This document shows positions 113-32,655 of a stretch of DNA of 34,542 bases, in pieces. How positions within the stretch are numbered: position 1 is the first letter of the stretch; the number at the start of each line of letters is the position of its first letter. The stretch spans positions 1 through 34,542 of the forward strand of contig CALJOK010000080.1 of assembly GCA_937981555.1 (NCBI GenBank), in the 5' to 3' direction. The notes under the pieces were generated by a model. That model ran no database searches, had not been told where the DNA came from, and saw nothing but the letters and a program-made list of their open reading frames with translations. This DNA comes from an uncultured Saprospiraceae bacterium (GTDB lineage: Bacteria > Bacteroidota > Bacteroidia > Chitinophagales > Saprospiraceae). Position numbers and translations under genes: made by a program.

Positions 113-186
113 CAATAGGTAAGTATTAACTTACGGAAAAGGAAAGAAATACCGAGACCTAGTAATAGAAAGTCTTCAATATTGTA

Positions 187-384
187 TTGATTACAAAGGG
201 CTACATGTACAATATAGCAAGGGTGATACAACAGAAATTGAATTATATTCACAACAATCCAGTTCGAGCAAATTGGGTAGGGATGCCGCAGCATTATATT
301 TATAGCAGTGCGTCTAATTATTTAGATGAGGGAAGAGGGATATTAAAGGTGAAAGTTTTGGATGAATTTTATGCTGTTAGTTAG
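187..384 (+). pseudogene. 3' remnant of a REP-associated (Y1/RAYT) transposase
   Basis: From about nucleotide 229 the frame encodes the typical end of REP-associated tyrosine transposases: QKLNYIHNNPVRANWV, then a YIYSSASNYL segment, ending in a stop at 382-384. In the family this region (KL.YIHNNPVRAGLV...YSSA..Y) is the C-terminal helix and tail of a protein of roughly 150-200 aa. The HUH motif and catalytic Tyr region are absent. The preceding 40-odd nucleotides do not resemble the family, and a terminator lies just upstream at 81-112. I read it as a truncated, inactive gene that could once have mobilised the hairpins at 11-61. Confidence 0.75.
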
Positions 385-4575: not shown

Positions 4576-5427
4576 ATGAATATTTTTTTCAAAAAAAAAT
4601 TAACAGAATCTGATTTAAGGGAACTGTTACTTTCTGGAAATGAAAGTAAGTGGAATCAACTGCGGAAGTATTTTATTCAGCAACTTCGTTTACAAGATCT
4701 TAAATCCTCTCCTAAAAAATATTTTTTCAACAACCTTAAAGCGCCTCATGAATCGAAAACATCTTTTGAAAAGGCTTTTCAAAATTTAATCAAGAATCCT
4801 CCTTTACCAGATCAATCCATCCTCAATTCATTTGAACGACATCTTGATTTTGAACTTATCCAATTGATGCAGACCAATGATCTAACTTTATTAAATCAAG
4901 CGGAAAACTATTTATTTTTTCGATTTTCAGAAATTCCTCATTTCCTAGAATTTAAAAATTTAGTTCCTGATGAAGAAAAAAGGTTGGATGCATTTGCAGA
5001 TGCTTTGGTTCATTTTTTTCAAAGAATTCAATTATATGGATTCGAACAAAGAGGTACCTTAAAAACTTTTTTCAATGTACTTTTCAAAAATGAATGCATC
5101 GATGATTATCGAAAAAAAGAAAATCCTACGCATCAAGTTTGGAACGGAGAGGACGAAGAATTACTGCTCCAACTTAATTCTTTTGAACAGTTAAAAAATA
5201 CTTTTTCGAAATATGATATAGAGGAACTAAGGTTTATTTTAAAGCAATTCGAAAAAGATAATCCAGGCTGCCATCAACAGATTGATGCATATTATTTAAA
5301 AGAAATTCCAACAACTGTTTTGGCAGAAGTGGCAGATAAAACGACAAGTAAAATTAGAGGCGCAAGATTTCGATGCATGGCTAAATTCAGAGCATTTTGG
5401 GAAAAAATGAAAAAAAGTGAGATATGA
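4576..5427 (+). CDS. ECF-like sigma-70 family RNA polymerase sigma factor
   Basis: A 283-aa protein. The C-terminal half has the two sigma domains. Region 2 is at about 135-182 (F..RIQLYGFEQRGTLKTFF, then KNECIDDYRKK, compare G.SLKTWLY.IARN.CID..RK). Region 4 is at about 215-275 (CHQQIDAYYLKEIPTTVLAE followed by a KIRGARFRCMAKFRAF helix). The first about 130 residues are a helical extension not found in ordinary ECF sigma factors of roughly 180-200 aa. I use ATG 4576 rather than the TTG just before it. Its stop overlaps the start of the next gene by 4 bp (ATGA), so the two are translationally coupled. The next gene looks like its anti-sigma factor, and a CHAT protein converges on the pair. 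The region 4 Cys-containing form is what I associate with Saprospirales sigma genes near CHAT/TPR proteins. Confidence 0.8.
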   Translation: MNIFFKKKLTESDLRELLLSGNESKWNQLRKYFIQQLRLQDLKSSPKKYFFNNLKAPHESKTSFEKAFQNLIKNPPLPDQSILNSFERHLDFELIQLMQTNDLTLLNQAENYLFFRFSEIPHFLEFKNLVPDEEKRLDAFADALVHFFQRIQLYGFEQRGTLKTFFNVLFKNECIDDYRKKENPTHQVWNGEDEELLLQLNSFEQLKNTFSKYDIEELRFILKQFEKDNPGCHQQIDAYYLKEIPTTVLAEVADKTTSKIRGARFRCMAKFRAFWEKMKKSEI

Positions 5428-19706: not shown

Positions 19707-19857
19707 AATAAAGCCCCTCCTAAATTCATGCCTTTTTAAGCTTTAAAAAAAAGATCCACAGAACATAAATAGGCATTCACAGAATAGCTCCTACTATTGA
19801 CTGAAAAGTCCAATACCACAACAAGCATAGGTGTCTACATCAACGTTTAGTTATATA
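19707..19857. repeat. Kinase upstream region, copy A of a duplicated segment
   Basis: This segment aligns by eye with 21805-21950 (copy B). Shared stretches include aataaag(c/g)cc at the left, aaattcat, ctttaaaaaaaa, (g)gcattcacag(a/g)atag, attgactgaaa, and taggtgt...atc..cgttta at the right. It carries the promoter of the kinase operon and possibly that of the YHYH gene. Conservation of the block in both copies points to a shared regulatory site. Confidence 0.7.
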
Positions 19858-19895
19858 GTTTTACGTTTTAAAATTGTTCTTATTTTTTCATAAAA

Positions 19896-20056
19896 AAGTT
19901 CTAAGTCAGAATTATGAATAAGTTATTTCGAGATTTATCTTTTTCTACTTCTAGGCAAAAAACGTAGGCGAACCCTACGGTTCGACGAGGCTTTTTAACG
20001 ACGAAGGATGAAAATATAAGCCGAAATAGCTATTCAATAATTTTGTCATAGAACTT
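19896..20056. repeat. 161-bp long-hairpin element, copy 1
   Basis: The 35-bp ends are imperfect inverted repeats (19896-19930 with 20022-20056; 27 of 35 match ungapped, more with two 1-base gaps). Inside are two boxes shared with the element at 32493-32655: aggcaaaaaacg (19953-19964) and tttttaacga (19992-20001), 39 bp apart here and 40 bp there. Between them lie two mutually exclusive hairpins, cgtagg/cctacg and cgaacc/ggttcg. The element ends 24 bp before the ATG of the YHYH gene. A possible -7 box TAATTTTG (20038-20045) lies in its right arm. Confidence 0.75.
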
Positions 20057-20080
20057 AAGTCTTAAAATCTATACTCAAAA

Positions 20081-20968
20081 ATGAAATTTAAAAAAAATGT
20101 TCTGATTCCAACTACTATTTTATTTTCCCTATGTCTTCTCTTTTTTGTATCATGCAAAGATGATGATGATCTTCCTTGTACCGAAACGACTTGGTACGAA
20201 GATGCTGATGCTGACGGATTGGGTAACCCTGATGTTAGTCAATCTGCTTGTGACCAACCAACTGGCTATGTGGCAGACAATACAGATACCAATGATTCAG
20301 GTACAGTAACTCAACTTCATGCAGCCTTTGCTGAATTTGATGCTGATCGAGTTACTGTGATTTTGGATGGAAGTAATTATGTTGTTACAGCTACCGGACG
20401 ACCAAATCATGAAACGGAATATTACCCAGTAGATAATCCCTTACATATTGAAGAAGACATCGACCATACGGGGGCGGCTTTAGGTGATCCATCATATATT
20501 GAAGACGGAGGAGACTATGAAATAACCTTCACCATAGATGCAAGTCCTGACCTTACAGGTGATGCAGTTGCGACAAGCTTAGGGGCACAAGGTGTTGCCG
20601 TAAGTGGAGCATATATTTACAATAATTATGAAGGCCCGACTGTACTTTCAACAATGACTGCTGAATCTTTGGATTGGACTGGAGCACATATTGGAAATAT
20701 GGGAGCGTATCATTATCACTTAGAGCCTCATGCATTTTCTAGCGATGATAGTAATTTAATAGGGATTCTTGCAGATGGTATATTTATCTATGGAAGAAAA
20801 TGTAGTGCAACTGGAGATTATCCAACTGATTTAGATAGTTCAGGAGGACATACAGGTGTCACCCAACACAATGCTGCTGGAGAATATCACTATCATATGA
20901 TTAACGAAGAATTTTTTGCAGGAACTGAAAAATATTTAATTTTTGAGGGACCATTTATGGGATATTAA
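20081..20968 (+). CDS. YHYH-domain lipoprotein
   Basis: A 295-aa protein. It has a lipoprotein signal (FFVSC, Cys25) followed by an Asp-rich stretch (KDDDD) and a thrombospondin type 3-like calcium-binding segment (TWYEDADADGLGNPD, about 37-51). The YHYH domain carries its two signature sites, GAYHYHLEPH (about 207-217) and GEYHYHM (about 267-273), with LADGIFIYGR between them. YHYH proteins are secreted proteins of unknown function; the paired Tyr-His repeats suggest metal binding. It is the nearest target for the divergent LytTR/kinase pair and has the long-hairpin element directly in front of its start codon. A terminator follows at 20991-21041. Confidence 0.85.
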   Translation: MKFKKNVLIPTTILFSLCLLFFVSCKDDDDLPCTETTWYEDADADGLGNPDVSQSACDQPTGYVADNTDTNDSGTVTQLHAAFAEFDADRVTVILDGSNYVVTATGRPNHETEYYPVDNPLHIEEDIDHTGAALGDPSYIEDGGDYEITFTIDASPDLTGDAVATSLGAQGVAVSGAYIYNNYEGPTVLSTMTAESLDWTGAHIGNMGAYHYHLEPHAFSSDDSNLIGILADGIFIYGRKCSATGDYPTDLDSSGGHTGVTQHNAAGEYHYHMINEEFFAGTEKYLIFEGPFMGY

Positions 20969-20990
20969 TCCTTAGCATAACAATATAATT

Positions 20991-21041
20991 GTGAGATTGG
21001 AAATAATAGAATGATTAAACAACTGTTACTTTCAATCTCAC
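20991..21041 (+). terminator. Probable terminator after the first YHYH gene
   Basis: gtgagattg (20991-20999) and caatctcac (21033-21041) form a 9-bp perfect stem with a 33-nt loop, followed by ctatttt. It lies 23 bp after the YHYH stop. The large loop makes it weaker than a standard terminator. Confidence 0.5.
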
Positions 21042-21083
21042 CTATTTTAACAAAATCCAATGGTTAGCAAAAGAGTGTTACTA

Positions 21084-21710
21084 ATGAAAATATACTTTAT
21101 TTTAATTATTAGTTTGTTGTACGGTTGTCAAAATCAAACAGAACATTTAAACAAAGAGTTCCCCCACAAAGTAAACATTATCGAATCTACACAAACAGTT
21201 ATTACTGATACGTTATATGTAAATACTGATAGTATTACCATACAAACTATTGGTGGCAAGGGATTATATAAAGGTGAATTATTTACTGGCTACGCTGCTA
21301 AATTTTTCGAAAATAATCAGCCTGCTGAAAAAGTATTTTATTTAAATGGTAAAAAAGAAGGAATTGCCAAGTATTGGTTTGAAAATGGTACCATAAGAAA
21401 AACGAAAAACTTTGCTCATAACAGATTAAATGGTCGTACGATTATATATTTTGAGAATGGGCAAAAGGCATCATTAAGAAATTATTTAAATAATAAACTT
21501 GACGGTATTCAAGAGGAATGGTATGAGAACGGAAAGATCTTTAAACGTCAAAATTGTATCGCAGGTAAAGAGGAAGGCTTACAACAAGCTTGGACTCGCA
21601 ATGGTAAAATATTTGCAAATTATGAAGCTAGGAATGGACGTATCTTTGGTCTAAAGCGAACGAATTTATGTGTTAATGTAAAAGACGAGATTATCTCATT
21701 GGATGAGTAA
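21084..21710 (+). CDS. MORN-repeat lipoprotein (YwqK-like)
   Basis: A 208-aa protein. It has a lipoprotein signal (LYGC, Cys15 counting from ATG 21084) and a short polar stretch, then at least four MORN_2-type repeats of about 23 residues (for example YLNGKKEGIAKYWFENGTIR, YLNNKLDGIQEEWYENGKIF). The final GRIFGLKRTNLCVNV segment with a single Cys is the form I associate with MORN proteins found near YHYH proteins in Bacteroidota. I start at 21084; ATG 21060 would add eight residues before the signal peptide. Databases label such proteins antitoxin of a YwqK family, but nothing here shows a toxin; a surface or periplasmic binding role is more likely. It lies in the YHYH run and should act with those proteins. 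Confidence 0.78.
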   Translation: MKIYFILIISLLYGCQNQTEHLNKEFPHKVNIIESTQTVITDTLYVNTDSITIQTIGGKGLYKGELFTGYAAKFFENNQPAEKVFYLNGKKEGIAKYWFENGTIRKTKNFAHNRLNGRTIIYFENGQKASLRNYLNNKLDGIQEEWYENGKIFKRQNCIAGKEEGLQQAWTRNGKIFANYEARNGRIFGLKRTNLCVNVKDEIISLDE

Positions 21711-21762
21711 TTTTTTCCCAACAAATGAATTCTATAACCTAGCATTACTTCCGAACTATTCC

Positions 21763-21950
21763 TTCTTCTCCTTATCATAAGAACTATCACTCACTCAAAT
21801 CTCCAATAAAGGCCTCTCCAAATTCATCCCTTTTTACCCTTTAAAAAAAAATCACAGACCTCAATTAAGCATTCACAGGATAGTTACTACCATTGACTGA
21901 AAGGCCTGATTTTGACATAACACTAGGTGTATCATTCATCGTTTATAGAG
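21763..21950 (-). pseudogene. Relict of a second LytTR/kinase operon (internal deletion)
   Basis: On the minus strand, 21763-21795 matches 18012-18044, the end of the LytTR gene (29 of 33 bases). Translated it gives V-S-D-S-S-Y-D-K-E-K-K against VSDSYYEKVKK, with an in-frame stop just before. The next part, 21805-21950, matches the kinase upstream region 19707-19857. The equivalent of 18045-19706, nearly all of the regulator and the whole kinase, is missing. The order and orientation are those of the intact locus. This shows a duplicated regulator-kinase-promoter segment that later lost its genes but kept its promoter block in front of the YHYH gene at 22013. Confidence 0.75.
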
Positions 21951-22012
21951 AAAAATAAGCGAACATATTGTTTACCTTTTTTTTCAAAAAAAAAATCAAA
22001 CCCATATCAAAA

Positions 22013-22990
22013 ATGATAATTAGAAAAAAGATAATTATAGTGGCAACAGTTGGAATTTTGTGTTCCCTATTCATCTTTATGGCAGCAAGTCCTGAGAAAA
22101 GAATTGTTGTTGGGGATGAATTAATTCAAAAATCTTTTTTCAATAGTACTGCTTTGATTTCATACAAAAAAGTGGATTGTACGCTTGAAGATGGTTCAAG
22201 GGTAGATTGCTATGAATTAGTTTTTAATAGTAACCCTGTTAACCAAGGGCCATACTGTCCTGAAAAAATTGATGAGGCTGTAAGTCTGACTATTTATGAC
22301 GGGCCACATAACCCTGGTTTTCAATTGGTTACCAGAGCATTGTTTGAAGCAATGGAAGCAGATGGTTTTGATATTGTAGAAGATGATGGGGAGGTGCATG
22401 GCTTTGATTCTGAGCAGCGAAGTGATTGGGATTACTGCTTAGGCCCCAAAGCACCTCCACGTGATATTGGTTTGGAGTTGACCTTTCTTATTCCTGCAAT
22501 ACCAATAATGACTGAAACAATTAGTGTTGTCAGTACGACCGATTTTGATTTAGTTGGCTTAACGCTCGATGGCATTCCGATTGCAGGAGACCCGCCATCT
22601 ATATTTGACGGACCAGGCCGTGGTATCCCCGGTGGAAACATTCCAGCCTTAGATCCATGTGGTGGACATCCTGCCCCTGCAGGATATTATCATTTACATT
22701 TTATCCCTGAGACTATAAATAAGGTTTTGGATGCAAATGGAATTACCGAAGTCGCTTGCACCAATATTTCCCAAGCATCAGGTACTCAAATAATTGGATT
22801 TGCTAAAGATGGTTTTCCCATTTATGCTTACGATGAGGAGCCTTTGGATTTGGATGAATGTAGAGGACGAAATGCAAGTACTCCTGAATTTCCAAATGGT
22901 ACCTATCACTATGTAGCTAGTAATAAACTAACACCTAACGCTCCAGATTGTATCAAAGGATTGGCGGTAAAAAGAGGCTTTAGTTTTTAA
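22013..22990 (+). CDS. YHYH-domain exported protein, paralogue 1
   Basis: A 325-aa protein. A hydrophobic signal or anchor at about 6-22 follows MIIRKK; there is no lipobox Cys. The body is shared almost block for block with the gene at 23112 (for example NPGFQLVTRALFEAME, DGFDIVED, STTDFDLVGL, DGIPIAGDPPSI, GFAKDGFPIYAYD). The YHYH sites are AGYYHLHF and GTYHYVAS, so only the second keeps most of the canonical YHYH. I use ATG 22013; an upstream TTG at 21968 would place 15 extra residues before the signal. Its promoter region is the retained half of the deleted LytTR/kinase duplicate. Confidence 0.82.
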   Translation: MIIRKKIIIVATVGILCSLFIFMAASPEKRIVVGDELIQKSFFNSTALISYKKVDCTLEDGSRVDCYELVFNSNPVNQGPYCPEKIDEAVSLTIYDGPHNPGFQLVTRALFEAMEADGFDIVEDDGEVHGFDSEQRSDWDYCLGPKAPPRDIGLELTFLIPAIPIMTETISVVSTTDFDLVGLTLDGIPIAGDPPSIFDGPGRGIPGGNIPALDPCGGHPAPAGYYHLHFIPETINKVLDANGITEVACTNISQASGTQIIGFAKDGFPIYAYDEEPLDLDECRGRNASTPEFPNGTYHYVASNKLTPNAPDCIKGLAVKRGFSF

Positions 22991-23111
22991 AAAAATCAAG
23001 CAATCTTATTTTCAATAACAGCACTTCCTTAATAGAAATTCAAATTACAAAAAATAGAATACACCTTAATTCAGCTTTAATTTATTTACTAACTTATTTA
23101 AACAAAAGAAA

Positions 23112-24116
23112 ATGCAATTATCAAAAAATGCAATTTTAAAAATCACATTAGGTCTAGTATTATTTATGCTAACTTTTACAGCCTGCAAAGACGATGATGA
23201 AGTTATTGTTGAACCTGACCCGATAGAAGTTTCGGATAGTGATTTGGTTCAAGAATCCTTCTTTAACGCTTCTTCTTTGGTTTCGTTTGAAACAGTTGCC
23301 TGTACCCTTGAAGATGGCACCGCTACAGAATGTTATCAAATTACTTTTAATGCGAACCCTGTTGAACAAGGTCCATATTGCCCTAGCAACATTGATGAAA
23401 CGGTAAGTATTACAATTTATGATGGTCCAAACAACCCAGGATTTCAACTGGTTACAAGAGCTTTGTTTGAAGCAATGGAATTAGATGGTTTTGACATTGT
23501 AGAAGATAATGGCGATGTCCATAATTTTGATTCCCCTCAAAATGATGATTGGGATTATTGCTTAGGACCAACAGGAGTGATACAACCTACTACATTAGAA
23601 TTGACTTTTCTTATCCCCGTAACGCCAGTATTGGCAACTGCTAATAGTGTGATTAGTACTACTGATTTTGATTTGGTTGGACTTTCTCTTGATGGTATTC
23701 CTATTGCTGGCGACCCACCATCTATCTATGATGGGCCTGGGCACAATATCCCCGGTGGAAACATCCCAGCATTGGATCCTTGTGGTGGACACCCTGACCC
23801 TGCAGGTTATTATCACTTACATTTCTTTCCTGAAACTATGAATAAAGTATTGGACGCTAATGGTATAACTGAAATATCTTGTACCAATATTGGACAAGCT
23901 TCAGGTACGGAATTAATTGGTTTTGCAAAAGATGGTTTTCCAATCTACGCTTACGATGATGAGCCTACAGACTTGGATGATTGTAGAGGAAGAACGGCAG
24001 TTACGCCAGATTTTCCAAATGGAGTTTATCATTATGTAGCTAGTAATTCGCTTGCGCCTAATGCTCCTGATTGTATCAAAGGATTGGCTGCAAATGACTA
24101 CTTCAGTTATCAATAG
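23112..24116 (+). CDS. YHYH-domain lipoprotein, paralogue 2
   Basis: A 334-aa protein, a tandem paralogue of the preceding gene over nearly the whole length after the signal. It has a lipobox (FTAC, Cys25) and an Asp/Glu-rich spacer (KDDDEVIVEPDPIE), so it is lipid-anchored, whereas paralogue 1 is not. The YHYH sites are AGYYHLHF and GVYHYVAS. Conserved CTLEDG and GPYCP Cys residues in both copies suggest disulfides or metal ligands. It is 121 bp after paralogue 1. A 5'-leader of AT-rich DNA separates them, so a separate promoter is possible. An 11-bp inverted repeat follows its stop. Confidence 0.85.
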   Translation: MQLSKNAILKITLGLVLFMLTFTACKDDDEVIVEPDPIEVSDSDLVQESFFNASSLVSFETVACTLEDGTATECYQITFNANPVEQGPYCPSNIDETVSITIYDGPNNPGFQLVTRALFEAMELDGFDIVEDNGDVHNFDSPQNDDWDYCLGPTGVIQPTTLELTFLIPVTPVLATANSVISTTDFDLVGLSLDGIPIAGDPPSIYDGPGHNIPGGNIPALDPCGGHPDPAGYYHLHFFPETMNKVLDANGITEISCTNIGQASGTELIGFAKDGFPIYAYDDEPTDLDDCRGRTAVTPDFPNGVYHYVASNSLAPNAPDCIKGLAANDYFSYQ

Positions 24117-32492: not shown

Positions 32493-32655
32493 TAAGCACT
32501 TGATCAAAATATCTATGAGTAAAATTTTGAAATTATTATTTTCTCTCGCGAGGCAAAAAACGCAAACCTAGCCTTATGCTATGGTGAGTATTTTTAACGA
32601 AGAGAAAGGAAGTAATAAATCAAAATTACTTATAGATACTTTGATCAAGTGTTTA
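32493..32655. repeat. 163-bp long-hairpin element, copy 2
   Basis: The 30-bp ends are inverted repeats with only three mismatches (32493-32522 with 32626-32655; the core is cacttgatcaaa/tttgatcaagtg). The two central boxes aggcaaaaaacg (32551-32562) and tttttaacga (32591-32600) are identical to those of copy 1 at 19896-20056 and sit at matching distances: 58 and 57 bp from the left end, and 55 bp from the right end in both. The arms differ in sequence from copy 1 while staying self-complementary. The element ends 21 bp before the start codon of the alkyl-sulfatase-like gene. Confidence 0.78.

Follow-up and report, generated by a model that had tools for sequence, protein, structure and literature searches.

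MITEs are usually regarded as decayed copies of one IS. ERIC, RUP and Correia/NEMIS are mobile palindromes of 100-170 bp that are repeated between genes; to our knowledge, each of them occurs only in related bacteria and has a single set of ends. The element described here is also a palindromic mobile repeat and, compared by description, would differ from them in both respects. Like the bacterial MITEs derived from IS5 and IS630, it is short and non-coding, has terminal inverted repeats and the ends of resident ISs, is flanked by target duplications and occurs in many copies. Unlike those MITEs, it has a conserved structured core that recurs in several phyla and beneath ends belonging to two transposase families, together with a near-constant length, pairing over its full length and strand-specific mismatches.

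The Beta-proteobacterial repeat element (BRE) is described as a repeat of ~90 bp in Polaromonas, Acidovorax, other Comamonadaceae and Bordetella that is suspected to be mobile, is often found in tandem and has one copy region transcribed as small RNAs (PMC3110155). BRE agrees with our core module in size and shares some of its hosts, but it is not described there as a transposon with ends. Judged by description, our core and the published BRE may be the same. The Coxiella elements QMITE1 and QMITE2 are reported as long palindromic MITEs with transcripts, and QMITE1 is presented as being without relatives in other genomes (PMC5896051). Our element is likewise a long palindromic MITE; set against these descriptions, its direct repeats differ. 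IStrons are outlined as a group I intron combined with an IS (PMC4227781). If read as RNA, our element resembles IStrons so outlined in joining a structured RNA to a DNA transposon; unlike them, it is ~160 bp long and has no Rfam match. A review of bacterial MITEs also describes stem-loop transcripts (PMC10969869). The literature covered, which was open-access with few subscription papers, yielded no element that combines a conserved core with exchangeable ends.

Two copies of a long hairpin share a conserved core

The window, i.e. the whole stretch of DNA analysed (34,542 bp of a contig from an uncultured Saprospiraceae bacterium), holds two copies of the element (Table 1). Two conserved boxes had been claimed at these sites in the initial annotation, and both are present: AGGCAAAAAACG at 19953-19964 and 32551-32562, and TTTTTAACGA at 19992-20001 and 32591-32600, with box starts spaced by 39 and 40 bp. 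The element limits given by covariance model R1, which was built from six copies including both of these, differ from those first proposed by no more than 1 bp. The core consists, in order, of an AGGC box, a short stem, an apical hairpin, a short stem and an AACG box.

Table 1. Coordinates of the element copies and their parts in the window.
Feature	Position	Strand	Details and basis
Element copy 1, full-length hairpin	19895..20057	+	163 bp including end dinucleotides, left AA, right TA; R1 163.3 bits
Element copy 2, full-length hairpin	32493..32655	+	TA at each end, 159 bp between; R1 144 bits
Core of copy 1	19953..20001	+	core alignment, model R2, cross-phylum pair counts
Core of copy 2	32551..32600	+	core alignment, model R2, cross-phylum pair counts
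Left arm, copy 1	19895..19952	+	partner 20002-20057; predicted folds and consensus structure
Right arm, copy 1	20002..20057	+	predicted folds and consensus structure
Left arm, copy 2	32493..32550	+	partner 32601-32655; predicted folds and consensus structure
Right arm, copy 2	32601..32655	+	predicted folds and consensus structure
Left TA of target duplication, copy 2	32493..32494	.	compared with G003 empty site
Right TA of target duplication, copy 2	32654..32655	.	compared with G003 empty site

Folded end to end as single-stranded DNA, copy 1 had a z of -3.78 (reached by 1 of 200 shuffles) and copy 2 a z of -8.01 (0 of 200). The two-box pattern gave four exact forward matches in the 7.25-Mb genome, versus none with a reversed-pattern control; a single box with one mismatch allowed matched at near the chance number within the window. 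The arms had been described as changed in sequence with pairing kept, and this agrees with what is seen in four copies, where 20 of 51 predicted pairs already carry both-sided changes. At the gathering score, Rfam gave no match in the window and none at 12 loci except one tRNA, while copy 1 searched alone gave weak matches, every one below gathering.

Copies are dispersed within genomes and across phyla

The initial annotation had named a lack of further copies, or arm changes that break pairing as often as they keep it, as grounds for rejecting it; instead, covariance-model searches recovered many further copies in which arm changes preserve pairing. With E up to 1, R1 listed 24 rows in the window's own genome, nine of them opposite-strand reads of the same places. 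This leaves 15 places, of which at least 10 are core-bearing (the six training copies among them) and five are altered or shortened (156, 144, 107, 67 and 48 bp). An extra R1 match of 42 bits, at L018:1282-1441, adjoins a training copy. Close pairs of elements were seen both there and at L103:4910-5003 and 5072-5166.

At E up to 0.1, R1 matched at least 19 of 40 relatives, with the window's own genome counted in; 72 candidates were scored per genome, which makes the counts lower bounds. Rows within the genus were very uneven (70 in G002, 52 in G004 and none in G003, both strands counted). The core model R2 was made from 33 copies in the window's genome and related ones. With E up to 0.01 it matched at least 16 of the 395 genomes that represent the phylum, a lower bound with 10 candidates scored per genome.

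A 30-letter core pattern was found in at least 119 stretches of the genome collection. Among 80 titles, the matches listed fall in Bacteroidota, Pseudomonadota, Gemmatimonadota and Krumholzibacteriota; those from Pseudomonadota include alpha-, beta- and gammaproteobacteria, and the genera among the matches listed include Martelella, Acidovorax, Polaromonas, Simplicispira, Tibeticola, Thiomonas and Endozoicomonas. When R2 was run on 60 of these loci, it recognized 53, with 60 matches overall (E up to 0.001), and gave none at the other seven, which do contain the pattern.

The core pattern was absent from viral contigs, and a Tibeticola copy had no match in phage records. Of 72,556 plasmid records, six matched the Tibeticola copy and six matched a piece from Simplicispira, none covering 80% of the query; an Endozoicomonas stretch gave no match. 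Element copies are present on plasmids, one of which is conjugative. Near-identical dispersed copies without a transposase gene were seen in Tibeticola and in MAG-117 (G435). A variant at L072, L083, L074 and L084 (G210 and G151) has AAGGC and AACG boxes and a longer inner stem, over a 113-letter match, with no long outer arms apparent by eye.

The element inserts with short target duplications

The same-genus genome G003, itself without any R1 match, provides the empty site of copy 2: both flanks match the window, with few letters between them. The window reads GGAC-TA-(159 bp)-TA-TATTTG and G003 reads AAAG-TA-TATTTG, by which copy 2 is a 159-bp insertion into TA with the TA duplicated. Its left edge rests on the TA and the matched flank beyond, because the four preceding letters differ. 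For copy 1, the genus offered no match to the flanks and hence no empty site to read.

Duplications are also found elsewhere. With up to two mismatches, the Tibeticola terminal repeat has 112 forward and 129 reverse matches, and identical 4-bp flanks were found for 22 of 27 distinct 161-bp copies; 13 of these 22 duplications are YTAR and the rest are AT-rich or similar, e.g. AAAA, CAAG and TTCA. The 161-bp copies of G436 sit in TNA. We also considered 109 core-pattern elements, a redundant set obtained with a finder that allowed only 152-172 bp and favours duplications. In 92 of them the two ends agree at no fewer than 11 of 14 positions; 75 of these 92 carry a duplication, of 4 bp in 23 cases (18 YTAR), 3 bp in 36 (35 TNA) and 2 bp in 16 (8 TA), and 17 carry none. 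Empty sites in relatives and target duplications had been named as signs of mobility, and both were found. Because of the empty site and the short duplications, we identify the mobile element as a MITE. It is a non-autonomous DNA transposon that inserts with TA, TNA or 4-bp (often YTAR) duplications.

Hairpin ends match those of two transposase families

Tibeticola carries a 1171-bp autonomous element with ends of the kind seen on its hairpins, TTAA on both sides and an IS5-family transposase (NF033581, 338 bits against a cut-off of 140). G217 has a 1.2-kb element in six copies whose ends, CTAGTGCTGCGTCAAG, are those of its hairpin; against the IS630 cut-off of 100, the second reading frame passes with 109.7 and the first falls below with 61.8. 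One core is found under the ends of two transposase families, IS5 in Tibeticola and IS630 in G217. The shared ends and the duplications support movement in trans by local DDE transposases.

No autonomous partner with the same ends was found at the PF01609 and PF13358 loci examined in the window's own genus, where the TA target would fit IS630. Similarly, 30 loci of G436 held no IS with the ends of its element. G236 had no PF13358 match. Neither G236 nor MAG-117, both of which bear copies, had a PF01609 match at E up to 1e-5, so other transposases must act there or have been lost. A separate observation concerns the Tibeticola IS5-family element at L240, whose right end holds AACGCAGCAGGCC; by eye this resembles the hairpin element's right-hand box and arm, as if the IS and the hairpin element had swapped sequence.

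A nearly identical center can carry unrelated arms

Two Comamonadaceae elements, at L138 and L142, are nearly identical over ~75 central letters and unrelated over the outer ~45 on both sides (core 0.95, arms 0.42; shuffled arms average 0.37). Their ends differ, as do the target duplications: CTAG for L142 and TAA for a second copy on the L138 contig, the latter read with a boundary finder that mis-set the ends of several palindromes. Arm identity was below 0.6 in 4% of element pairs with core identity of at least 0.95 (n = 150) and in 34.6% of those with core identity of 0.90-0.95 (n = 104). A conjugative Cupriavidus plasmid has a core that is 93.8% identical over 80 letters, yet other ends. 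As judged by sequence comparison, a nearly unchanged center of ~75 bp can carry unrelated outer arms on both sides. This joint difference of the two arms hints that an end acquired on one side may then be copied across through the hairpin.

Compensatory change and strand-specific mismatches suggest selection on one folded strand

The core can be aligned across phyla and the outer arms cannot. Both-sided change was seen in 22 of 24 pairs in the cross-phylum core alignment (59 distinct rows). Paired cells made up 93.9%, compared to a shuffle mean of 64.6% and at most 50.8% for slid versions, in an alignment that was fitted to the very structure under test and so leans toward pairing. The near-invariant apical pairs are not evidence, because the search pattern fixes the apical hairpin; the stems internal to the core are also altered by compensation. 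An integron attC site, a k-turn, a hammerhead and domain V of a group II intron were each considered and dropped on inspection by eye. One subtype carries CTGATGA, which bears on the hammerhead and which we took as chance.

Within Tibeticola, variation in the core was 0.039, compared to 0.017-0.052 in the arms outside the terminal repeats. The copies at L225, L229, L120 and L251 have TTTCG where the AACG box is expected, and short core-less derivatives have intact target duplications in three of five cases. With a Tibeticola core no better conserved than the arms, four copies that lack the AACG box and three core-less derivatives that still have duplications, movement does not obviously depend on the core.

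For the outer arms, the outer 52 letters of the left and right arm were aligned without favoring any mismatch class, in 71 elements kept from 157 after removal of similar ones. The core was left out because its conserved internal loops hold fixed unpaired letters; the balance is reversed in these innermost 25 letters, with 166 A.C versus 47 G.T. The 3471 aligned arm pairs comprised 2656 Watson-Crick, 274 G.T, 77 A.C, 357 purine-purine and 107 pyrimidine-pyrimidine pairs, while composition predicts 143 G.T, 105 A.C, 327 purine-purine and 240 pyrimidine-pyrimidine mismatches. By element (n = 71), G.T exceeded A.C in 57, fell short of it in seven and equalled it in seven. A double-stranded cruciform is indifferent to strand but a folded plus strand is not, and the G.T excess therefore points to one folded strand. 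The asymmetry points to selection on one folded strand, for which RNA is the most likely and simplest reading; a plus-strand mutation bias is the main alternative. The element showed no bias toward the G-rich flank strand (45 vs 49), which is a weak proxy for the replication strand, and its gene contexts are mixed.

A MITE that would borrow transposases

We consider it probable that the element is a MITE of ~160 bp that forms one long imperfect hairpin, borrows local DDE transposases, exchanges its arms and has a core selected for its fold. Local DDE transposases would move the element through its terminal repeats, and fold-back synthesis within the palindrome would copy an end newly gained on one side onto the opposite side. 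Least certain of all, a plus-strand transcript would fold, and the internal loop of its core (AGGC against AACG) might be recognized by a bacterial factor that is widely conserved, or might in some other way make insertions tolerable; the core and its pairing would be selected for one of these reasons. We propose that the core may have a role as RNA in persistence while transposases are borrowed. A bolder version, which we hold tentatively and would put at somewhat less than an even chance, is that the core lives off insertion sequences as a hyperparasite, in the form of a selfish structured RNA or of a single DNA strand that folds. It would repeatedly swap both arms for the ends of a resident transposase, with the palindrome copying the new end across, and would persist over phyla in this way. 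The initial annotation had offered a structured cis-RNA or a palindromic mobile element, and the two halves hold together: mobility is supported by the empty site, the duplications and the dispersal, and selection on the fold is favored by the sequence changes.

Three features are unusual: strong compensatory change in the core, outer arms that can both diverge completely around a nearly identical core, and strand-specific arm mismatches. A single structured core is found here with the ends of two transposase families unrelated to each other, in several phyla, and with arms that differ as a pair. How non-autonomous elements change transposase, and whether the hairpins of bacterial MITEs act as RNA, are questions that can now be tested. 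Such a core could also account for palindromic repeats that seem unrelated because alignment is confined to the core, as happened when plasmids were searched.

Paired exchange of the arms would fit one arm being copied onto the other in an ordinary MITE, i.e. an internally deleted IS with no selected structure, whose palindrome is matched by template-switch (quasi-palindrome correction) and whose core was spread by recent horizontal transfer. The core-less derivatives with duplications, the lack of special conservation of the Tibeticola core and the copies on plasmids, including the conjugative one, point the same way. However, arm copying does not account for one strand having more G.T than A.C, and the alignment of the core across phyla under unalignable outer arms, as well as compensatory change within the core stems, makes this account rather unlikely. 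We also find it unlikely that the element is a single-stranded DNA substrate, in which the plus strand would fold while being replicated or transposed and present a hairpin for a protein to act on. This would suit the strand-specific mismatches and the full-length hairpin, but not the ends and duplications, which are typical of double-strand DDE elements, and the even use of the G-rich flank strand gives it little encouragement.

A cis-regulatory RNA of adjacent genes, spread by transposition, would be consistent with the compensatory change, with the position of the copy outside open frames at 69 of 74 loci, and with the location of both window copies 19-21 bp upstream of a + strand ATG. We nevertheless judge it very improbable. 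Gene context is mixed (same-strand ++ 24 vs -- 15, convergent 20 and divergent 8, at the 67 loci where crude frame calling found both neighbors), copy 2 is absent at the same gene in G003, and Rfam gave no match. Finally, we give almost no credence to the earlier proposal of a REP-like element moved by a RAYT. By eye, the fragment at 187-384 looks like what we take to be a RAYT tail, the resemblance lying in the YIHNNPVRANWV that ends an open fragment at 169-384 (+ strand), but 187-384 has no Pfam match at E up to 0.001. REP elements with a RAYT are moved by a Y1 transposase and are not known to leave a target duplication, whereas the inverted ends here come with 2-4 bp duplications and are ends common to DDE elements. 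REP elements are described as palindromes of 20-40 bp (PMC3733652), compared to ~160 bp here. The duplications, the terminal inverted repeats shared with IS5 and IS630 elements and the 160-bp length are hard to reconcile with mobilization by a RAYT.

Sequences adjacent to copy 1

It should also be noted that a direct repeat of ~100 bp (83% identical) lies at 19707-19806, just before copy 1, and again at 21805-21902, ~2 kb further on. Three adjacent predicted proteins encoded at 20081-24116 (+ strand) have similar YHYH/YYHLHF stretches by eye.
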